The notes under the pieces were generated by a model that did no database searches, was not told where the DNA came from, and worked only from the letters and a program-made list of their open reading frames with translations. The translations under genes and the position numbers were made by a program. Of a stretch of DNA of 42,353 nucleotides, positions 25,966-38,645 are shown piece after piece; the first letter of the stretch is position 1, and each line of letters starts with the position of its first letter. Source of the stretch: Calditrichota bacterium (GTDB lineage: Bacteria > Electryoneota > AABM5-125-24 > Hatepunaeales > Hatepunaeaceae); contig VGIQ01000009.1 in the NCBI GenBank assembly GCA_016867835.1, forward strand, positions 1-42,353, written 5' to 3'.

Positions 25966-26478
25966 ATGAACCAGTTTCGAGGCTCTCACTCAAGCCTTCA
26001 AAAGGCAGCCACAGTGTCCATGCCTGTGATTGTCGCGCTTCTATTTGCCGTGACGGCCGGGTGTGGAAACCCCGGCGATACACCCCGGCGAGGCTTCGAG
26101 CGCGGCAAACTGCCCGAGAAGTTCGATCACCCCAAACCCGGTCGGGCTTCCTACATCGAGCCGAAGCAGTTGATAGACACCCTCAACGCCGGCGCTCAGT
26201 TGCAAATCTACTTCATCGAAGATGTTCCCCCACCCGAGCCGCTGTATGTCGTCCATCTGCCCGGGATGAACTTCATTCAGTATGGCGAGGTCTTTTCCGA
26301 CTTTAACAAGCGGGACAAGTCCCGACCTTACTATTTCATATGCCTCTATGGGGACGACTCTAAACGCGCCGCCGAGAATCTCGTCAAGGATGGCTTCACC
26401 TCTTATTACCTTGATGGCGGAAGTTTTCGACTGGTGAGTGAGATGCGCAAGCATGGTTGGTCCGTTCAGTGGAGATAG
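25966..26478 (+). CDS. Rhodanese-like exported lipoprotein
   Basis: A basic N-terminus and the hydrophobic PVIVALLFAVTAGC form a signal sequence ending in a possible lipobox cysteine; TAGC lacks the usual leucine, so lipidation is uncertain. The remainder resembles a rhodanese domain. YYFICLYGDDSKRAAENLVKDGF matches the active-site loop and following helix, with a cysteine at the catalytic position, and YLDGGSF matches the conserved GG turn. Starts at ATG 25966 or ATG 26020 are both plausible; neither has a strong SD. The ORF extends further upstream into the GGDEF gene, which is unlikely to be used. A sulfurtransferase activity is possible but unproven. The gene lies between the diguanylate cyclase and a secreted protease. 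Confidence 0.75.
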   Translation: MNQFRGSHSSLQKAATVSMPVIVALLFAVTAGCGNPGDTPRRGFERGKLPEKFDHPKPGRASYIEPKQLIDTLNAGAQLQIYFIEDVPPPEPLYVVHLPGMNFIQYGEVFSDFNKRDKSRPYYFICLYGDDSKRAAENLVKDGFTSYYLDGGSFRLVSEMRKHGWSVQWR

Positions 26479-26521
26479 GTGCAACTGTCATGATCAGCGG
26501 TCTGGAAGTCAAGGCAGCATA

Positions 26522-29089
26522 ATGCGGAGCGTGACTCTATTGGGCTTTGCTGCTGCCGCATGGCTAATTGGATCGTTTGGTCATCCATTTCAAGCAGCGA
26601 CTCCCACGCCCGATGAGGCCTATGTGCCTTATTGGATCTACTTCCACGACAAGGATTTCGGGCGCGGTGAATCGCTTGCGTCGAGGGTAGCCGATCACGC
26701 CGCCGCGCAACCGCTGCGGGCGCACATCCGTCGCACCCGGGCGGGAGCCTCGTTCGAGGTTGCGGACCTTCCAGTTCCGGACTCTTTCGTCCGATATGTT
26801 GAATCTCGCATCGGTCGAAAGGTGCGGACGGTGAGCAAATGGCTTAATGCCGTTTCGATAAACCTGAACATTGCGGAATTACAGGCTCTTGAGCGCGCTA
26901 TAGGCGCTCCCGGGTCGCCCGTAGCACGCGTCGGCCCGGTTGCCCGGTGGAAGCGCGAACCCCCCATGCCCGTGATCGAACTCCCCGTCGAACCGCCTCC
27001 GCGCCGTGATCACTTCTACGAATACGGCAATTCACTTACCCAGAACCGCTTCCTGAATCTTCCTGAACTGCATGACCGGGGATACCGCGGTCGTGGCGTC
27101 CTGATCGGCCTCTGCGACACCGGCTTCGACAACCTCGAACACAACTGCTTCCGGACTATCGACATCGTCGCCACGTGGGACTTTGTCAACGACGATGAGG
27201 ATATCGATAACGGCGACGACATGGGGGTGGGTGATCACGGCACCAAGACGCTCTCGATCATCGGGGGCCTCGAAGCGGAGCGGATGGTCGGTGCAGCACC
27301 GGAAGCGACCTTTCTGCTTGCCAAGACCGAAAACACCGAGTGGGAGCGGCCGGTGGAAGAGGATTACTGGATCGCCGCAATCGAGTGGATGGATGGCTTT
27401 GGGGTGGAGGTGGTTTCGTCGTCGCTTGGCTACAGCGACTGGTATGAGTATGAGGACTATAACGGCGAAACGGCACCGATCACACTTGCTGCCGACCGGG
27501 CGGTGCGAATCGGCATTGTGGTGGTCAACTCCATCGGCAACGCCGGGCTGAACAACTATCCCCGCAACAAGTTATCAGCCCCCTCGGATGGCTTTGGCGT
27601 TCTGGCGATCGGCGGAACCAACCGGGACAGCACCCATGCGCGATTCTCATCGCACGGGCCTTCCTTCGACGGGCGGATCAAGCCGGACTTCATATCCTTT
27701 GCCAACGGGACGATCTTTGCATCGTCGCGCAATCCGACCGACTACGGCGCGGGACTCGGGACTTCGTTTTCATGCCCGATGGTTGCCGGTCTCGCTGCAT
27801 TGCTGATTCAAGCCAACCCCTACCTTTCGCCTACGGACATTCGCGACGCCCTCCGGGCCGCTTCGACGCAAGCCGATAACCCCGATACTTTGCGTGGTTG
27901 GGGCATTCCAGACGGCTGGCGAGCCGTGCAGAGCGTTCCGCTTGGGCGCTCCGAACAGGTTGTCCCGCTCCGGACCGGCTGGAACACTGTATCGCTCAAT
28001 CGATTGACAGATGCCCGACGCTTCGAAGACTATCTTGCCGATCTCGTCGAACGTCAGAGGCTCCTCTTTGCCAAGGACGGTCAAGGGCGATTCTACAGCC
28101 CGCGGATCGGCTTCACGAACATTATCGTCTGGGAGCAAAAAGCCGGGTATCAATTACAGTTAAGCGATCCTGACACCTTACGCTACGAGAACGACCTGAT
28201 CGATTACAGGGTGCCGATTTCACTTGTCGAAGGCTGGCAAATCGTCGCCTATTTTCCGGAATTTCCGCTATCTGCACCAGCCGCCTGTCAAAGTCTGATC
28301 GCCGACGATGCCTTGCACGTCATAAAGGACGACCGGGGGCGGTTCTTCTTGCCGGAATTCGATTTCAGCAATATGCCGGCAATGCGCCCGGGACGCGGAT
28401 ATCACATCCGCCTCCATCACGATTCTGAGTTGATCTATCCGCGCTTCAGACCGGCCTCTGATGGCAATGAAGACTACGACCCACGCTTCAGTGAGACCAT
28501 AACCGTTTCAGGCGAACGCAGCATGAGCGTACTGCTGATTGGGGGCGAGGGAGAAGTCGATGGCAGCGAGGTCAGACTTGAGAGTCAGCGCGGCGAGGTG
28601 TTGGCAACAGGCTGTCTTTCAGATGGCATGTGCGGGCTGGTGGTATGGGACAGACCGGAAGGAGAGCCTATTGAGGTTAGCCTTCTATCCGGCGTTAGGA
28701 ACCGTGAGCGGCCGAGATGGGAAAGAAAGACCGCTGAAGTTGAACTGGTGGAAGGTGAACTGAAGTATCAAGCCGACGGCGTTGTCGTAGCGCGGTTGAA
28801 AATTCTGGCCGATCATTCAGGAAATCGACCTTCCCAAGCAGTTGTCGTCATACCTCAACCGTTCAATGACCGGGTTCGAATATCCTTTGGAGCGGCGCCT
28901 TTATCAACGGTCAATGTGTCGCTTCACAATCTCGCCGGACAGCAACTGGTATCACTGCTTGTTTCGACCGGGACGACCGGGTTGGTAAACGCCAGTCTAA
29001 GCGCCAACGATCTACCTTCCGGCATCTACATCCTCGCCCTCGAAGGCGCAGGTCTATCCTACCGCAAGAGGCTTGTTCATTTACGGTAA
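26522..29089 (+). CDS. Secreted subtilisin-family (S8) serine protease with T9SS-like tail
   Basis: A signal peptide (1-26) is followed by a probable I9-type propeptide (about 35-130) and the catalytic domain. The triad is D199 in CDTGFD, H239 in GDHGTKT and S415 in GTSFSCPM, and the oxyanion asparagine N340 is in SIGN. Two beta-rich domains of unknown role follow the protease. The last 80 residues (PQPFNDRVRISF through LPSGIYILALEG to RKRLVHLR) resemble type IX secretion C-terminal sorting domains, or the related FlgD-like Ig fold. The ATG at 26522 has AAGG upstream and gives 855 residues. Its 3' end overlaps the convergent tatD gene by 13 bases. Extracellular protein degradation is the likely role. 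Confidence 0.93.
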   Translation: MRSVTLLGFAAAAWLIGSFGHPFQAATPTPDEAYVPYWIYFHDKDFGRGESLASRVADHAAAQPLRAHIRRTRAGASFEVADLPVPDSFVRYVESRIGRKVRTVSKWLNAVSINLNIAELQALERAIGAPGSPVARVGPVARWKREPPMPVIELPVEPPPRRDHFYEYGNSLTQNRFLNLPELHDRGYRGRGVLIGLCDTGFDNLEHNCFRTIDIVATWDFVNDDEDIDNGDDMGVGDHGTKTLSIIGGLEAERMVGAAPEATFLLAKTENTEWERPVEEDYWIAAIEWMDGFGVEVVSSSLGYSDWYEYEDYNGETAPITLAADRAVRIGIVVVNSIGNAGLNNYPRNKLSAPSDGFGVLAIGGTNRDSTHARFSSHGPSFDGRIKPDFISFANGTIFASSRNPTDYGAGLGTSFSCPMVAGLAALLIQANPYLSPTDIRDALRAASTQADNPDTLRGWGIPDGWRAVQSVPLGRSEQVVPLRTGWNTVSLNRLTDARRFEDYLADLVERQRLLFAKDGQGRFYSPRIGFTNIIVWEQKAGYQLQLSDPDTLRYENDLIDYRVPISLVEGWQIVAYFPEFPLSAPAACQSLIADDALHVIKDDRGRFFLPEFDFSNMPAMRPGRGYHIRLHHDSELIYPRFRPASDGNEDYDPRFSETITVSGERSMSVLLIGGEGEVDGSEVRLESQRGEVLATGCLSDGMCGLVVWDRPEGEPIEVSLLSGVRNRERPRWERKTAEVELVEGELKYQADGVVVARLKILADHSGNRPSQAVVVIPQPFNDRVRISFGAAPLSTVNVSLHNLAGQQLVSLLVSTGTTGLVNASLSANDLPSGIYILALEGAGLSYRKRLVHLR

Positions 29090-30805: not shown

Positions 30806-31447
30806 TCACTCCTGAAGCGCGATGACTGCAAGCAGGTTGTTACCCGCATGCAGCGCAACTGCCGGATAGATCGAACTGCACCTTATTGTCAGATAACCTG
30901 CAATGAGCCCCAACAACACCAGTTGCCCGTATTGCCATGGCGTCGGGTGGAATAGTGCGAAGACGATCGCTGAGATCGCCACCGCACCGGTTGGCAAAAG
31001 ACGTGTCTTCAGATGCTGCAACAGCAGTCCGCGAAAAATCATCTCTTCGACGACTGGCGCGACAATGACGATGCGCATAACGACCCCGAAACCATCCTGG
31101 ATGCTTCCGATCTGCACTGAACTGCTCAACAGTCTGGCAAACTCATCCGGGGGTGATAAGAGCGAGACCATCATACGATCGATCAGTGCGATCAACACAA
31201 CGCTGCCCGCTAACACTGTCACAAGTATAACCTTCCGCATACCCTTTGTCGGACCGAGCCCGAAGGAACTCACCGGCTCAAGTCCCCGGATGCGAACCCA
31301 TGTGTAGCCGGCAAGAAGCGCTATTCCCGTCGTCAGGATCGCGCCATTGGGGCTGCTTCGCGTCAGCAGCGGCCCTGCGAAGAGGTAGATGACTGCCAGC
31401 ATCCAAAGGAGCAGCCCGGTTTCCAGATAGAAAGCCGCCTGTTTCAT
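30806..31447 (-). CDS. CPBP family intramembrane metalloprotease
   Basis: The protein has about seven hydrophobic segments and the CPBP/Abi (CAAX protease-like) motifs: E134, E135 and R139 in VVEEMIFRG, H167 in FALFHPTP, and H200 with N204 in LHAGNN. These residues form the predicted intramembrane metal site. The ATG at 31447 gives 213 residues; an in-frame TTG at 31474 would add nine polar residues. Family members process prenylated or membrane proteins or give bacteriocin immunity, and the substrate here is unknown. It is transcribed divergently from an ECF sigma gene 101 bases away, so a role in envelope stress signalling is conceivable but not shown. Confidence 0.9.
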   Translation of the reverse strand: MKQAAFYLETGLLLWMLAVIYLFAGPLLTRSSPNGAILTTGIALLAGYTWVRIRGLEPVSSFGLGPTKGMRKVILVTVLAGSVVLIALIDRMMVSLLSPPDEFARLLSSSVQIGSIQDGFGVVMRIVIVAPVVEEMIFRGLLLQHLKTRLLPTGAVAISAIVFALFHPTPWQYGQLVLLGLIAGYLTIRCSSIYPAVALHAGNNLLAVIALQE

Positions 31448-31490
31448 TTTAGTCTCAATTCTCGTCGTTTTCAATTGGGTTCACCGGGAG

Positions 31491-31519
31491 TTGACAATAC
31501 CTGCTCTTAACATTGTGAT
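31491..31519 (+). promoter_or_regulatory. Sigma-70-type promoter for the ECF sigma operon
   Basis: TTGACA (31491-31496) is a perfect -35 box, and TGTGAT (31514-31519) is a four-of-six -10 box at the optimal 17-base spacing. The predicted start of transcription is near 31526. That would make translation from ATG 31528 nearly leaderless, or give a 23-base leader for ATG 31549. Confidence 0.5.
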
Positions 31520-31548
31520 TCCCGTTCATGTGTCTTAAATTGCAACCG

Positions 31549-32190
31549 ATGGATGACCAACTGCAATTGCCGCCGGAGCGTATCTCTAATGAGGAGGAAG
31601 ATCCGCTCAATCCCGATGCCGACCTGATCGAACGAAGTCAGGCCGGGGACGATGCGGCCTTCCAAGTGTTGGTGGAACGTTATAGGTCCCGGGTCGGAAG
31701 CATCGCCTATCAGGTGCTCGGCAACTACGAAGACGCGCGCGATGTGGCGCAAGAGGTCTTCATCAAGTTATATCGCGGCATCGGCAGTTTCGACCCGCAT
31801 AAGAAGTTCTTCACCTGGCTCTACCGGCTTACCGTAAACGCCTCCATCGACTATCTTCGTGCCAAGCGCCGTCGCTCGTATGAGAGTTCGATCGACGAGC
31901 GCCCCGAACAGTATTTCAACATCCCTTCGGCTGACAGCGACCTTGCGAGCCACGACATCGAACGTCGTGAACTTCGCCAGTTGTTCATCGACCTCGCGGC
32001 GAAACTGAATCCCAAGCAGCGGGCGGTCTTCGTCCTCTGTGACTTGCAGGGGTTCACCGCCGATGAAGTGGCCGAGATTCTGAACTGTCCGAAGGTAACC
32101 CTTAGGTGGTATTTGCACGAAGCGCGACGGCGCATACGCATCGCCATTGCGCGCGACCACCCGGAGTATTGGAGAGGCAAACCGAAATGA
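31549..32190 (+). CDS. ECF RNA polymerase sigma factor
   Basis: This extracytoplasmic-function sigma factor has region 2 (AFQVLVERYRSRVGSIAY through DVAQEVFIKLY and FFTWLYRLTVNASIDYLR) and region 4 (LNPKQRAVFVL through CPKVTLRWYLHEARRRIR), joined by a short linker. Region 1 and region 3 are missing, as expected for the class. ATG 31549 gives 213 residues; ATG 31528 is an in-frame alternative, and neither has an SD. The stop overlaps the anti-sigma gene by ATGA. It resembles RpoE/SigW-type regulators that respond to envelope stress. Its target promoters cannot be predicted here. Confidence 0.94.
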   Translation: MDDQLQLPPERISNEEEDPLNPDADLIERSQAGDDAAFQVLVERYRSRVGSIAYQVLGNYEDARDVAQEVFIKLYRGIGSFDPHKKFFTWLYRLTVNASIDYLRAKRRRSYESSIDERPEQYFNIPSADSDLASHDIERRELRQLFIDLAAKLNPKQRAVFVLCDLQGFTADEVAEILNCPKVTLRWYLHEARRRIRIAIARDHPEYWRGKPK

Positions 32191-32711
32191 TCTGTCTTTG
32201 GGTTCGACGCAAGATGTTGACGATGTCGGGACGGGCGCTGGCCCGGCCAGCATCGGCATGGATCCGAATACACCTCGAACGCTGCCCCGGCTGCGAAGCC
32301 GAGCGGCGCGCCTGGCTGGCGCTCGACCACGACTTGAAAGTGGCTTCATCACCTTCGCACCCACCGGTGATAGACCTCGATCGCGTCAAGACCGGGCATC
32401 GCACACTGGCCTCGACAGGCTCGCTGCGCCGGTGGCTCGACTGGATTCTGATCCCTGAGATGACCTTGCGCTGGGGAACGGTGGTCGTTGCCCTGCTCGC
32501 AATCGGACTCGGCGCAACACAGTTTGGTGGTCGAGGCTCAAGCGCGGCAACAGGCGCATTTCCCAACGATGTTGTGCTCTATCCCGATGCCGTCTTGATC
32601 CGCGAGCACCCCGACACCGGGATCCGGCTGACCCCCGGAGCCGTCAGTTTTCGCCCCGACTTTCGTAGTTCAGATGCGGGTGATTCGCAATCGACTGGGG
32701 CGTCGATTTGA
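32187..32711 (+). CDS. Zinc-type transmembrane anti-sigma factor
   Basis: The N-terminal cytoplasmic part carries a ZAS-like motif: a cysteine at residue 3 and H-x3-C-x2-C in HLERCPGCEAE, the pattern that binds zinc and the cognate sigma factor. A single membrane segment (WGTVVVALLAIGLGATQF) separates it from a short extracytoplasmic tail of about 60 residues. The ATG at 32187 sits in an ATGA overlap with the sigma gene, the standard layout for a cognate pair. The length is 174 residues. The outside tail has no recognised sensor fold. Release could follow proteolysis or zinc-site oxidation; both are inference from the family. Confidence 0.85.
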   Translation: MICLWVRRKMLTMSGRALARPASAWIRIHLERCPGCEAERRAWLALDHDLKVASSPSHPPVIDLDRVKTGHRTLASTGSLRRWLDWILIPEMTLRWGTVVVALLAIGLGATQFGGRGSSAATGAFPNDVVLYPDAVLIREHPDTGIRLTPGAVSFRPDFRSSDAGDSQSTGASI

Positions 32712-33760
32712 TTCGACGTAGTTCAATGAACCGGTCAATAGCCGCTCTTTCCGCACTGGTGGGAGTAAGTCTGTTGATTGCCGGCTGCACTGCGCGGGAT
32801 CCCATGACGACGCTCCAGGACGGCGTTAGGAGCGCGATCGACGCAGCCCGGTCGGGATCGGTTTCGATCGAGGTTTCGCTCGTCGATTCGGTGGCTGAAA
32901 GTGAAGGTGAAGCTAAAAGGCTCGGTGCCGGAGTGGTCATCGACCCGTCGGGCACAATCGTCACCACCCAGAACACCGTCGAGGGGGGACGTTCGTTCGT
33001 AGTGATCTTCCTCGATGGCTGCCGGTATCGAGGGCAACCGACAGGAATCGACCGCGAGACAAACCTCGCCTTCTTAGCGACTGCACAGCATGAGCACGGC
33101 TGTTACCCCGTCACACTGGCAATCGATGTTCGTGCAGAACCGGGCACCATCGGTGTCGTCATCGGTCATACGCCAATAACACGGGGCGTAGCCGCCGCAT
33201 GGGGTGTCTTAGCCTTGACTTGGATGGGCGGAGATGACTACTTAAGCGATCCACTCTATTTGATTCAAGCCGGGGACCTGCTTATGGCGAGCGGTTCCGG
33301 CGTGATCGACCTAAAGGGGCGTCTGGTTGGCATCTGTGACAACTGGATCACCGGGCATCCCGGTTCCTGGACCGTAATCCCGACTGCAACGATCGACCGT
33401 GTCGGACGGCATTTGAAAGCCAACGGGGTCATTCAGCGCGGCTGGATCGGCCTCTGCTGCAGCGAAGTGGCCGGTGGTGAAAGCCGGAGTGCAACCGCAT
33501 TGCGCGTGAACGAAGTGATGCCGGGAAGCCCTGCAGCATACGCCGGAATCCTCTCCGGGTCCTTAATCACAGCCATTAGTGGAGAGCCGGTCAATAACCT
33601 TAACGACTTGCGCCGTAAGATAACTGGAGTTCGTAACGGAACTTCACTGAAGGTTAAACTGCAGATGGAAAACGGCACCGACTGCGAGGTTGAGATTGAC
33701 CCGGTGCAACTCGCCGACGATCCGACCCGCGATCGCCGCTGCTCCAGTCGCTCGATCTAA
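32708..33760 (+). CDS. HtrA-like PDZ lipoprotein with degenerate catalytic triad
   Basis: A lipoprotein signal ends at LLIAGC (C27). A trypsin-like HtrA domain follows (GAGVVIDPSGTIVTT, then DRETNLAFL, then a LVGI strand), and a PDZ domain (about 245-330, GWIGLCC through PGSPAAYAGI and GEPVNNLNDLRRKI). The HtrA histidine position (TNNHVV in active enzymes) reads TTQNTV, and the aspartate position (DLAVL) reads NLAFL. The serine remains in MASGSG, but the GNSGGP loop is altered. The protein is therefore probably an inactive protease that senses or scaffolds. It overlaps the anti-sigma stop by TTGA from TTG 32708; ATG 32726 is an alternative. The 350-residue length is near that of DegS. Confidence 0.85.
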   Translation: MIRRSSMNRSIAALSALVGVSLLIAGCTARDPMTTLQDGVRSAIDAARSGSVSIEVSLVDSVAESEGEAKRLGAGVVIDPSGTIVTTQNTVEGGRSFVVIFLDGCRYRGQPTGIDRETNLAFLATAQHEHGCYPVTLAIDVRAEPGTIGVVIGHTPITRGVAAAWGVLALTWMGGDDYLSDPLYLIQAGDLLMASGSGVIDLKGRLVGICDNWITGHPGSWTVIPTATIDRVGRHLKANGVIQRGWIGLCCSEVAGGESRSATALRVNEVMPGSPAAYAGILSGSLITAISGEPVNNLNDLRRKITGVRNGTSLKVKLQMENGTDCEVEIDPVQLADDPTRDRRCSSRSI

Positions 33761-33867: not shown

Positions 33868-34929
33868 ATGACCCGCCGCCTTGCGCTGGCCGCGCTCGCT
33901 ACGACCGTTCTTCTTGCCGCCTGTGCCAAGGGGCCGGATAATATTCCCTATAACGAAGCCAAATACGCCCTCAGCCTGCTATCCCGGACGACCACCCGAG
34001 GGGTTGCTACCGACGTCTGGGTTTCGGGATCGCGGGCTTATGTTTGCGACAGCGAACAGGGGGTTACGATTTGGGATGTGTCGAATCCGGGGGCGCCGGC
34101 CTGTATCGACACGCTGAGAACTTCTGCGTCGCCGATTATAGCGCTCTACTCGCCGATGACCAACCTGCTGGTGGTCAATGAGCGCAATCCGGCAGGACTT
34201 ACGCCAGCTTATGACATGACGACCAAGACCGCGGCGGCGATCCTGCCCTGGGACTCCGGCATCAGCGACATCGACATGATTGAATTCCATCCCGATACGC
34301 TCTTTCTGGCGCGGGTCGATGGCGGAAGTTCGACTCAGCGCGGTGAAGGTTTCGGGCTGGTGAAGTTGTATCGCTTTCCCGGCGGTCTCTGGGAGACCGA
34401 TCTTAGGACCCGGTTCGAGCAGCCGCCTTTTGGCAACTATCGCGGACTTAAACTCTGGGGTCTGCAAAGCGACACTATCTTCGTTGCATTCGGCAGTTAC
34501 GGGCTTCACGTCTTAAGGGTTGACTTTTCGACCTTCGACAACTTCCCGTTTGCCCCGATCGGTTACCTCGATACCCCCGGATCGGCGGAGGACATCGACC
34601 TTAACAGAAGCGGCACCCACGCCCTAATCGCCGACTCGCACAACGGTCTGCAGATCGTTGATGTCAGCGACCGGACGAACCCGCGCCTTGGGGCTTCGAT
34701 AATTCCCGAAGGCTTCAATCAGACGATCAAGGTAATGGCGGTGGGTGACACGGCTTACTGTCTTGAAAGGCTCCGCGGCATCTGGGCGGCAGATGTCAGC
34801 ATCCCGAGCCAGCCGCGATTGATAGCCGTCTATCGCACCAGTCGGCCGGAAGGACTATTCGTTACCGACAATCATACGATATATGTGGCAGACGAATACG
34901 AAGGCTTGATGATTCTTCGCTGGAGATAG
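33868..34929 (+). CDS. LVIVD-repeat beta-propeller lipoprotein
   Basis: A lipoprotein signal ends in LLAAC (C19). The mature protein is built of beta-propeller blades with the LVIVD pattern: AYVCDSEQGVTIWDVSNP, ALIADSHNGLQIVDVSDR and IYVADEYEGLMILRW. These repeats are frequent in surface proteins of FCB and related phyla and have no enzymatic residues; binding or scaffolding is likely. The ATG has CTGGAG six bases upstream. The 107-base gap from the HtrA-like gene holds at best a weak promoter. A gingipain-type protease follows 29 bases later, so the two may share a transcript. Confidence 0.88.
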   Translation: MTRRLALAALATTVLLAACAKGPDNIPYNEAKYALSLLSRTTTRGVATDVWVSGSRAYVCDSEQGVTIWDVSNPGAPACIDTLRTSASPIIALYSPMTNLLVVNERNPAGLTPAYDMTTKTAAAILPWDSGISDIDMIEFHPDTLFLARVDGGSSTQRGEGFGLVKLYRFPGGLWETDLRTRFEQPPFGNYRGLKLWGLQSDTIFVAFGSYGLHVLRVDFSTFDNFPFAPIGYLDTPGSAEDIDLNRSGTHALIADSHNGLQIVDVSDRTNPRLGASIIPEGFNQTIKVMAVGDTAYCLERLRGIWAADVSIPSQPRLIAVYRTSRPEGLFVTDNHTIYVADEYEGLMILRWR

Positions 34930-34958
34930 GCCCGACCTCCCATCACTCAGAGGATAAC

Positions 34959-37900
34959 ATGTTTCATATCAATGACATACTAAACGCCCGTCGCGTTGCG
35001 CTGACTTTGCTCTTTTCCGCTTTCGTTGCAATGCCGCTTCATGCAGCAGACTGGTTTGCCTTAGGCAGCGGTGGTTCATCACGCGCTCCTGACTGGAACC
35101 TGCTCGAAGAATCGAGCGGACATTTGGTGGTCGAGGTTACGCATAATGGGTTCTACCTTGAGCGCATGTCAACGTCGGAAGGCGCTTTCGAGCGGATTTC
35201 CTACACCGGACGTCCGCCGGCTTCCCGAGCCGCGCTCGGATCGCCTGAACTGACGGCGGTAACGACTATGATTCGCCTTCCGGAAGGTATGACCGGCCGG
35301 GCGGAGATAGTCTCAGCGGAGTGGGAAGAAGCCGGCAATCATCGCATCTATCCTCTGCAGTTACCCCGTCGTGACGGCGAACCGGCACCGAACTTCGCCT
35401 ATGATCCGAAGGTCTATGCTTCCTCTGAACAACTTCCTTCTGAATCGGTTCATCTGACTCAACCTCAAGGCTGGATGGGGGTTCCGGTGGCATCGCTCGG
35501 CGTTGTGCCGCTCCGTTACCGACCCTTGGATGGCGCTCTGCAGGTAGCCCGGCGAATGGTGATCCGGATCGAATTCGAGGCTGCCAACCTGCCGCCGCTC
35601 GTGAGACCGCGCCGGCTTGAGCCGGTGATGCAGAAGAGCCTCGAAGCGGCACTGGTCAATCCTCCGTCGCCCGATGTCCGGCCTCTCGAGAGCGATGAAA
35701 ACGAACCGGTCCGGACGCTCGTGCTGGTGCGCGAGTCGGCGCTTGAAACCGTGATGCCGCTCATCGACTACTACCGCAACAGCGGCCTCCGACCCGAGAT
35801 TTGGCTGATTGAAGGCGTCCCACAACCGACTACGATCAAGAACCGCATCCGGGCGATGTATGAGGAGGGCTTGCTCTATGTCCTCTTCGTCGGCGATGCC
35901 TACCCAACCAACGCCCAGCGCATCCCACAAATCCTCTGGGATCAGGATGATCCAGGTCCCCAGCAGGGCTATTCCGACGCCTTCAGCGACTCGTGGTATA
36001 TCTGCCTCGATCCGGCAGTGGATGGCTACGACGACCACCTGCCCGACCTTGCCATCGGTCGAATTCCCTACGATCGCGATCAGTGGGCGCAACTTTCGAT
36101 TCAGATTGCCAAGTCGGTCGAATACCGCCAGTGGGCTTTTCCGCAGCGGGACGGCGGCGAATGGCTCGACCGGTCGCTTCTGATTGCGCACAAAGAACTC
36201 TATGAAGAGGTTTACACCTACATTTCCTGCAAAGAGTGGATTGAGGGCTTCAACTACCGCCTTGACCCGCCGGAGTTCATTACCGCTTATGGGACAAGCC
36301 AGCAGGCAACCAACGCCTTCCTGCGCAATACCATCAATGGCGACGGCTACGGCATTGTCAACTACCGGGGGCACGGGCTCGCGACGACCTGGGGCGACTG
36401 GAATGTGAACTTTGAGGAATGGACTACCGGAAGTTGCACCTTGCTCAACAACCGTAACCGGCCCTTCATCCTGATTCTCTCCGCCTGCTACAACAACAAC
36501 CTCGTCCGGCATAACGGCACTTCAATGGGGGAGGCGTTCCAACGTCGTCCCGGCGGATCGGTGGCGGTGCACGGTTCGACCGAATCGACTTTCACTGATG
36601 GCAACACATTCTTCGACGAGACGGTCTTCACCGCCTGGTTCCATCACGGCATCTTCGACATTGGATATGCCGGCAACTTCGCCGCGACGCAGATGGTGCA
36701 GGAGTTCGATCAGCATCGCTTCACGATGATTGGGCGGTTCAACCTCCGTTCTTATACCTGGCTGGGCGATCCGGCGCTCGAATATCGCCACGGTCGGCCG
36801 CGTGAAATGGTGCTCGAAGTTTCGGAGATTGTGCCGGTTGGGACGGAATCTATCGAAGCAAGAGTTACTGCCGCGGGTCAAGGCGTCGAAGCGGTTCGGG
36901 TAACGGCTCGCACCATCGATGATGTTAGTTATGTCGTATCGTCGACGAGCCAGGACGGCCGGGTGCTACTCAGGTTCGACCCGCCGCTTGAGGGTCCTGC
37001 CGAGTTGATCGTAGCGGCGGTCAATCGCAACGATATACCAGTTATCGACACGATTCTGATCGCCGACGGCCTTGGCGTTGTCGAAGGTCGTGTCGTTGCG
37101 GCCCGTGACAATCGGCCCGTGGCAGGAGCGACAGCAACTTTATCCCGATTCGCGTTAAGGGCCGTGACCGATGCCAACGGGCGTTACCGCATGGAGGGCA
37201 TTCCGGCCGGGAACTATTCCCTCACCGCGACGGCGCCAAGATGGCTTCCGCTGTCGAGCGAAGTTGAGGTCGTCGAAGAGGAATCCCGGACGGTTGACTT
37301 CAGTATGCGCTACAGCGAGTTGGTCATCGACCGCCAGGCGGCGAACGGCAACGTCCCGGCGCAGTCGTCCATCGTATTGCCGATGCGCATTACCAACCGC
37401 GGCGATGGGCCGCTCGGCTGGACGTCGTCGCTCAACGTTCCGGGCGACTTGGCTCCGCTCACCCGCACGGAGGAATTCTACTTTTCTCTTGATGTGGATG
37501 ACTCCCGCCTGCACGGCGCGGCTATGGCCGGTGAGCACTTCTATGTCGCCGGTGGCAACAATAACGCGGATCCGAACTACATCTACGTCTTCGATCGCGA
37601 GGGCCGGTATGTGCGCCGGTTCGAGCAGCCGCAAGGCGCGGCGGGACTCGGATTGCGCGACCTAGCTTGGGATGGAATCTATCTCTACGGCGTCAGCCAG
37701 AATACCATCTACCAGATGCGCACCGATGGGGAACTGATCCGCAGTTTCGCCAGTCCCTTCCCGGGCAACTTCGGTATTGCCGTTGCAGGCGACGGGACGA
37801 TCTTCGTCAGTGATAACAACGTTCAGACCCGGGTCTCTCATCTCGATCGTAACGGGAATGAAATCGTCCGCTTTAACACCGGCCTCACCGTCAAAGGTCT

Positions 37901-38645
37901 GGCTTGGAATTATGAAGTGCCGGATGGCTATAATCTGTTTCTCTATGTTCGTCCGGCAATCGGTGGAATCCAACTCTACGCAATGCATCCCAATAGCGGC
38001 GCACTGAGGCTGATTGGCAGCCTTCCAATCGAAGTCGGCGACACGCCCATCGAGGGCTTGGAACTGACGACCGACTACGCACCGCCCTACGGCTTGACAT
38101 TGCTCGGAGCCGTCGCCAATGAGGACTTGCGCCGGATCCAGACCTGGCACCTCGATTATCGCCGTTACTGGGCTCGCGTATCGCCGTCGCAGGGGAGTGT
38201 CCCATCCGGGGCTTCCGCCGATGTGAGCATCATTCTCGATGCGATTCGCCAGCGTCAAGGGTATGAACTGACCGGCGAGTTGATCCTTGCCAATGACGGC
38301 GTAGAGCCCGTCGTTAGGGTTCCGGTGCGGATGAACGTCGGGCCGGAGTCTATTGAAGATGACCTGGATAGTGGGATACCGAACGCATTCCGGTTGGCAA
38401 GCGTCCATCCCAATCCTTTCAATGCCCGACTCACGGTGGTAGTCGAACTACCCCATGCCGGACAACTAAGGGTCGGCCTCTTTGACCTCACCGGTCGAAG
38501 TGTCGGATCCGCTTTCGAGTCAAGAGTAGGACCCGGACAACAGACCTTCGCTATCAACGGTGGAGGACTGGCAAGTGGCGTCTATATCTTGGGTGTAGAG
38601 TTTGGCAGCCGGCGTGCGACACAGAAGGTCGTGTTGCTGCGTTAA
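34959..38645 (+). CDS. Gingipain-type (C25) secreted cysteine protease
   Basis: This 1228-residue exported protein starts with a signal peptide (about 1-29) and a long propeptide-like region. The C25 catalytic domain spans roughly 250-620, with catalytic H472 in IVNYRGHG and C510 in ILILSACYNNN. A carboxypeptidase-regulatory-like beta domain follows at about 705-775 (GRVVAARDNRPVAGA), then a BACON/Ig-like stretch and a propeller-like region (about 840-1065). The last 80 residues (NPFNARLTVVVEL through LASGVYILGVEF to TQKVVLLR) look like a type IX secretion sorting domain. AGAGGA lies before the ATG. Extracellular proteolysis is the likely role. A strong terminator follows the stop. Confidence 0.93.
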   Translation: MFHINDILNARRVALTLLFSAFVAMPLHAADWFALGSGGSSRAPDWNLLEESSGHLVVEVTHNGFYLERMSTSEGAFERISYTGRPPASRAALGSPELTAVTTMIRLPEGMTGRAEIVSAEWEEAGNHRIYPLQLPRRDGEPAPNFAYDPKVYASSEQLPSESVHLTQPQGWMGVPVASLGVVPLRYRPLDGALQVARRMVIRIEFEAANLPPLVRPRRLEPVMQKSLEAALVNPPSPDVRPLESDENEPVRTLVLVRESALETVMPLIDYYRNSGLRPEIWLIEGVPQPTTIKNRIRAMYEEGLLYVLFVGDAYPTNAQRIPQILWDQDDPGPQQGYSDAFSDSWYICLDPAVDGYDDHLPDLAIGRIPYDRDQWAQLSIQIAKSVEYRQWAFPQRDGGEWLDRSLLIAHKELYEEVYTYISCKEWIEGFNYRLDPPEFITAYGTSQQATNAFLRNTINGDGYGIVNYRGHGLATTWGDWNVNFEEWTTGSCTLLNNRNRPFILILSACYNNNLVRHNGTSMGEAFQRRPGGSVAVHGSTESTFTDGNTFFDETVFTAWFHHGIFDIGYAGNFAATQMVQEFDQHRFTMIGRFNLRSYTWLGDPALEYRHGRPREMVLEVSEIVPVGTESIEARVTAAGQGVEAVRVTARTIDDVSYVVSSTSQDGRVLLRFDPPLEGPAELIVAAVNRNDIPVIDTILIADGLGVVEGRVVAARDNRPVAGATATLSRFALRAVTDANGRYRMEGIPAGNYSLTATAPRWLPLSSEVEVVEEESRTVDFSMRYSELVIDRQAANGNVPAQSSIVLPMRITNRGDGPLGWTSSLNVPGDLAPLTRTEEFYFSLDVDDSRLHGAAMAGEHFYVAGGNNNADPNYIYVFDREGRYVRRFEQPQGAAGLGLRDLAWDGIYLYGVSQNTIYQMRTDGELIRSFASPFPGNFGIAVAGDGTIFVSDNNVQTRVSHLDRNGNEIVRFNTGLTVKGLAWNYEVPDGYNLFLYVRPAIGGIQLYAMHPNSGALRLIGSLPIEVGDTPIEGLELTTDYAPPYGLTLLGAVANEDLRRIQTWHLDYRRYWARVSPSQGSVPSGASADVSIILDAIRQRQGYELTGELILANDGVEPVVRVPVRMNVGPESIEDDLDSGIPNAFRLASVHPNPFNARLTVVVELPHAGQLRVGLFDLTGRSVGSAFESRVGPGQQTFAINGGGLASGVYILGVEFGSRRATQKVVLLR

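Follow-up and report, generated by a model that had tools for sequence, protein, structure and literature searches.

HtrA proteases such as DegS cleave the anti-sigma factor and thereby activate ECF sigma factors. The algU-mucABCD operon of Pseudomonas joins an ECF sigma factor gene to that of the HtrA protein MucD and also contains mucB and mucC; MucD and AlgW are active proteases, unlike the predicted pseudoprotease described below. RseB has a fold different from that of HtrA proteins, and CnrX, to our knowledge, is not HtrA-folded. AlgW is a Pseudomonas HtrA with a PDZ sensor (PMC8545111). In M. tuberculosis, sigE is followed by rseA-htrA-tatB; the genes sigE and rseA do not share a transcript, and control of RseA is described as acting through its redox state and through phosphorylation/ClpC1P2 (PMC10027907). 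In the CnrYXH system, metal exposure frees the sigma factor from the membrane complex (PMC4803752).

The window, which is the whole stretch of 42,353 nucleotides that was analysed, encodes an ECF sigma factor, an anti-sigma factor and an HtrA/DegS-like PDZ lipoprotein (here called pseudo-HtrA). These products had been named in an earlier, sequence-only reading, and all three open reading frames were present. The sigma factor gene (31528..32190, forward strand) matched Pfam Sigma70_r2 (3e-20) and r4_2 (2e-12) as well as NCBIfam sigma70-ECF. Its product consists of regions 2 and 4 only and scored 113.5 bits with the ECF superfamily model TIGR02937 (cut-off 42.9); orthologues 46-81% identical were present in 15 other genomes. 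Upstream, the sequence-only reading had placed a promoter, TTGACA (31491-31496)-N17-TGTGAT (31514-31519). This sigma-70-like candidate (31491..31519, forward strand) can be read directly and matches at 10 of 12 positions, a score equalled by 0.5% of shuffles of the 150-bp upstream stretch, but it was absent from the output of a stricter promoter scan and its conservation across relatives is incomplete. A sigma-70-type promoter that is not kept in all relatives is plausible here and, if real, would make ATG 31549 a more likely start for the sigma factor than 31528.

The anti-sigma factor gene (32187..32711, forward strand) is joined to the sigma factor gene by an ATGA overlap. From the signature and hydropathy, its product was assigned an N-terminal ZAS-type zinc domain, one TM helix at about residues 91-113 (the single hydrophobic segment lies around residues 92-110) and a short periplasmic segment that is poorly conserved. 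The zinc signature of the window protein, C3-x25-H29-x3-C33-x2-C36, has spacing identical to that of the orthologues, and the C-x25-H-x3-C-x2-C signature of ZAS class I was found in seven of the eight anti-sigma orthologues, the window included. A zf-HC2 match was obtained for six of the eight; the window protein was not among them and alone gave no Pfam match above cut-off, and its NCBIfam antisigma match (2e-4) fell under that model's cut-off. AlphaFold modelled it as helical, though overall confidence was low (pTM 0.35), and because of this weak model comparison with PDB folds returned no usable match.

The third gene (32726..33760, forward strand, with an alternative TTG start at 32708) encodes a lipoprotein that was classed as a pseudoprotease of the HtrA/DegS fold and has a single PDZ domain (Pfam Trypsin_2 5e-11, PDZ_6 7e-10). 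Stop-to-start overlaps had been reported for all three genes, and both the ATGA and the overlap of TTG 32708 with the anti-sigma stop exist; however, ATG 32726, which gives a clean lipobox LIAGC, is equally plausible. The anti-sigma/pseudo-HtrA junction varies among relatives, overlapping in G014 and G009 and elsewhere leaving a gap of about 6-28 nt, which means that conservation does not extend to the overlap. The lipobox Cys21, expected of a bacterial lipoprotein, is invariant across the eight members of the family; so are R238/G242, where the PDZ domain begins, and Arg342 of the C-terminal tail. The AlphaFold model of pseudo-HtrA reached a pLDDT of 80 and a pTM of 0.80, and its best PDB fold match by Foldseek was DegS 4rqy (E 3e-23, TM 0.7-0.8). 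Scores with the DegS equivalogs NF008147 and TIGR02038 were 72.6 and 71.3 bits, below the respective cut-offs of 408 and 422.95. The C-terminal tail RDRRCSSRSI (33728..33757, forward strand) follows an RRCxxRS-hydrophobic pattern found in most of the family and, standing after the PDZ domain, looks like a possible ligand for its own or another PDZ.

Alignment to DegQ/DegP structures and 39 relatives placed N83 at the His position and N113 at the Asp position, in agreement with the replacement of both by Asn that had been described, and S189 at the Ser position, a retained residue that the sequence-only reading did not mention. The window protein has the predicted trypsin-like and PDZ fold of the HtrA/Do group (MEROPS S1C) without its His-Asp-Ser triad. 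His and Asp are lost in all eight members of the family, and H-D-S is intact in 39 of 39 aligned ordinary HtrAs. The Asp position is Asn in every member, within an invariant E-T-N, and the His position reads N, E, G, G, V, G, with Ser or an adjacent small residue, depending on the alignment, in the two f2 members. An alternative His that would restore the triad had been considered as an objection, and none is conserved across the eight members in the family alignment. The catalytic His and Asp required for a site-1 protease role of the DegS/AlgW type are missing from the sequence, which supports the earlier description of pseudo-HtrA as a protease homologue predicted to be unable to cut.

The pseudo-HtrA family profile was run over 386 genomes, and a four-member alignment also served as a query of genome contigs. 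Eight genomes scored 408-504 bits with the profile, and the next matches, which were intact HtrAs, reached at most 202. The seven orthologues besides the window come from phylum LCP-89/Electryoneota (six) and a KSB1-labelled MAG. All eight form a single clade (SH-aLRT 100) and all are intact open frames, so pseudo-HtrA is not a decaying gene; loss of the triad in every member of one clade indicates that the inactive form is old and has been maintained. Homologues with an intact triad and no linkage to a sigma pair would have spoken against the module, and intact HtrAs do occur, also in genomes bearing pseudo-HtrA, but the score gap and the tree mark them as clearly separate paralogues. In 47 loci, no intact HtrA gene had such an anti-sigma gene as a neighbour.

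A gene-neighbourhood search in related genomes, as the sequence-only reading had proposed, found pseudo-HtrA immediately 3' of a TM anti-sigma gene and near the sigma orthologue in 8/8 genomes, representing four family-level groups; it was never found apart from the anti-sigma gene. The same sigma orthologue precedes the pair; in G039 alone it is separated from the anti-sigma gene by a cation-efflux gene. Since the remaining neighbourhood differs among the four groups, the sigma factor, anti-sigma factor and pseudo-HtrA are what stays together. The sigma tree and the pseudo-HtrA tree give the same family groups, as would be expected if the genes were inherited together and lost later in some lineages.

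At a sigma orthologue threshold of 1e-35, 16 genomes were informative. The TM anti-sigma and pseudo-HtrA were both present in eight and both absent from the other eight (8/8 versus 0/8, Fisher p = 1.6e-4 with kinship ignored). On the sigma tree the co-loss represents about four changes on the best tree, or 2-3 on well-supported branches, and with so few independent changes it stayed below significance by independent pairs (sign test not significant). In five genomes of the window's family (G001, G003, G004, G006 and G007), an LVIVD-repeat lipoprotein gene comes straight after the sigma gene, with no anti-sigma or pseudo-HtrA there, and a profile search of these genomes found no anti-sigma of this kind elsewhere. 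In G018, G021 and G024 the anti-sigma is a soluble zinc-domain protein of 80-106 aa without a TM segment, and pseudo-HtrA is absent; this short gene adjoins PurN, which in G013 and G030 neighbours the complete anti-sigma/pseudo-HtrA pair. Because pseudo-HtrA is present only with a membrane anti-sigma, the tie is to the membrane/periplasmic part of the anti-sigma and not to the sigma factor. The coupled module put forward from the window is therefore well supported by linkage in eight genomes of four groups and by joint absence from eight genomes that keep the sigma factor.

One member departs from this arrangement. The anti-sigma of G014 is without the zinc signature, its TM segment and pseudo-HtrA still being there, and a terminator-like hairpin with a T-run lies immediately 3' of the sigma gene (L061 1592-1626), between sigma and anti-sigma. 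This state suggests that, at least in G014, the membrane protein with pseudo-HtrA has a task additional to, or different from, retention of the sigma factor. Either zinc is dispensable for the inhibitory domain there or the pair serves a second purpose.

Several observations concern the surroundings of the locus. The gene after pseudo-HtrA (33868..34929, forward strand) encodes an LVIVD-repeat lipoprotein; in family f1 it keeps its place next to the sigma gene, also in members that lack the anti-sigma and pseudo-HtrA. Together with a gingipain-type C25 peptidase bearing a Por_Secre_tail it follows the sigma locus at 33868-38645, and the LVIVD/C25 arrangement was seen in all examined members of the window's family whose contig extends far enough. 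A subtilase with the same kind of Por_Secre_tail is encoded at 26438-29089; the sigma factor may serve a secreted-peptidase (type IX-like) neighbourhood. Five sigma orthologues without an adjacent anti-sigma (L034, L048, L049, L050 and L051, in G003, G004, G006, G007 and G001) are 67-74% identical, and 28-245 bp separate them from the LVIVD lipoprotein gene that follows. These are apparently unlocked ECF sigma factors within the window's own bacterial family. An autoregulated ECF promoter before the sigma or LVIVD gene was rejected, as alignments of the upstream regions gave no conserved motif. Divergent from the sigma gene, on the reverse strand at 30806-31474, is a gene for a CAAX/Rce1-like (CPBP) intramembrane protease, and its position is kept in six same-family relatives, also where the anti-sigma is absent.

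We consider pseudo-HtrA to be probably a dedicated non-catalytic, lipidated periplasmic co-regulator of the ECF sigma/TM anti-sigma pair, derived from a DegS/DegP-type protease. The co-loss with the membrane anti-sigma, the best functional clue, favours such a role. Since the protein keeps its PDZ domain and lipid anchor but not its catalytic residues, the simplest reading is that it would bind and modulate the anti-sigma in the periplasm, by analogy with RseB/RseA and CnrX/CnrY. In the cytoplasm, the zinc domain of the anti-sigma would hold the sigma factor, and the single TM helix would carry a short segment into the periplasm, where pseudo-HtrA would bind it via the protease-fold body, the PDZ domain or both. 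A periplasmic ligand would alter this contact, and the state of the contact would decide whether the anti-sigma holds the sigma factor or is exposed to ordinary site-1/site-2 proteases. These genomes encode intact HtrA paralogues and a site-2 protease of the RseP type, so proteolysis could fall to others. We infer the binding to the anti-sigma, the direction of its effect, the ligand and the absence of cutting in vitro; gene linkage by itself does not prove that pseudo-HtrA binds the anti-sigma, and the small number of independent co-losses, the state of G014 and the poor conservation of the periplasmic segment count against this reading.

Pseudo-HtrA might instead be a periplasmic chaperone or envelope lipoprotein that only shares the operon or the sigma regulon and exerts no control over the anti-sigma. 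Plain operon membership fits a regulon member, and HtrA proteins have chaperone roles that are independent of cutting. The regulatory meaning of rseA-htrA co-transcription in mycobacteria is unexplained (PMC10027907). We regard this explanation as unlikely, given that pseudo-HtrA occurs beside an anti-sigma in 8/8 genomes and only where that anti-sigma is of the membrane/periplasmic type, not wherever the sigma factor is. Far less probable is a residual or unusual protease that cuts with Ser189. The Ser position reads S, E, S, S, S, G, P, P by alignment row, so that Ser is retained in four members (the window, G027, G039 and G013), but Glu, Gly, Pro and Pro replace it in the other four, and the GNSGG motif around it is altered to MASGS in the window protein. 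With His and Asp both missing throughout and no conserved alternative His, a residual Ser protease was rejected because half of the family is without Ser.

A third explanation is a specific form of the co-regulator reading and does not exclude it: pseudo-HtrA could be a CnrX-like periplasmic sensor of metal or thiol stress that signals to the anti-sigma, which we hold to be possible but doubtful. Six of the eight mature pseudo-HtrAs contain 7-9 Cys, whereas the corresponding region has 0-2 in 39 ordinary HtrAs (p = 1e-4, kinship ignored), but the two f2 members have only 0-1. The window protein carries a His/Cys-rich loop HEHGC (residues 122-126; 33089..33103, forward strand), matched by HQCGC in G005, and such loops also occur in G027 (HHQCKH), G013 (HDDDCEHYQH) and G039 (HDPCHCRGECTC), although they occupy different alignment positions. 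In G039 (L055 5359-14001), the gene inserted between sigma and anti-sigma encodes a cation diffusion facilitator, an OEP/CusB-like (heavy-metal-binding domain)/AcrB-type efflux set lies 3' of pseudo-HtrA, and ArsR and SBF-type transporter genes lie upstream. In G021 (L100 1879-2091) and G018 (L102, about 1824-2072), the short anti-sigma gene and PurN have a small HMA-domain (heavy-metal-associated) gene as neighbour. MamO is a precedent for a metal-binding pseudoprotease of the HtrA fold (PMC4794232). The Cys-rich composition of six members and the location of the G039 trio in a metal-efflux cluster thus make a metal or thiol signal possible, but there are no metal genes in the window's own neighbourhood, and disulphide stability also explains Cys-rich periplasmic proteins. 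More speculatively, a DegS-type protease may have been converted once, early in the lineage, into a metal/thiol-responsive pseudoprotease serving as the sensor subunit of an ECF switch, that is, a dead DegS in a CnrX-like job.

The co-regulator reading sets pseudo-HtrA against several described systems. The sequence-only reading knew of no system with this architecture, which holds for the inactive version: a search of the open-access literature found no report that links an inactive HtrA with a sigma/anti-sigma pair. The order of ECF sigma, anti-sigma and HtrA-family genes is known from the sigE locus of M. tuberculosis, where HtrA is called an essential serine protease (PMC10027907), whereas the pseudo-HtrA family is without the triad throughout. 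The gene order is thus already known, and its inactive version appears to be undescribed. Among HtrA pseudoproteases, MamO of magnetotactic bacteria is alike in its degenerate triad, its non-catalytic function and its maintenance as a clade; it differs in acting in magnetosome formation, in its C-terminal transporter domain and in having Thr for the nucleophile, and the available text of PMC4794232 reports no sigma/anti-sigma link for it. The CnrYXH locus of Cupriavidus metallidurans is similar in encoding a sensor alongside an ECF sigma factor and a membrane anti-sigma (PMC4803752), and G039 resembles it further in its tie to an efflux operon; CnrYXH is metal-responsive, whereas no metal response is known for the pseudo-HtrA family. 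In the RpoE-RseA/RseB/DegS system of E. coli, the protein closest in fold to pseudo-HtrA is DegS, which differs in being an active, membrane-anchored site-1 protease (PMC8103513). At this locus a DegS fold seems to take the place that RseB has there, and to do so without cutting. If so, an HtrA fold would sense and regulate by binding alone, and the related genomes with and without the anti-sigma/pseudo-HtrA pair are natural comparisons that make the question testable.
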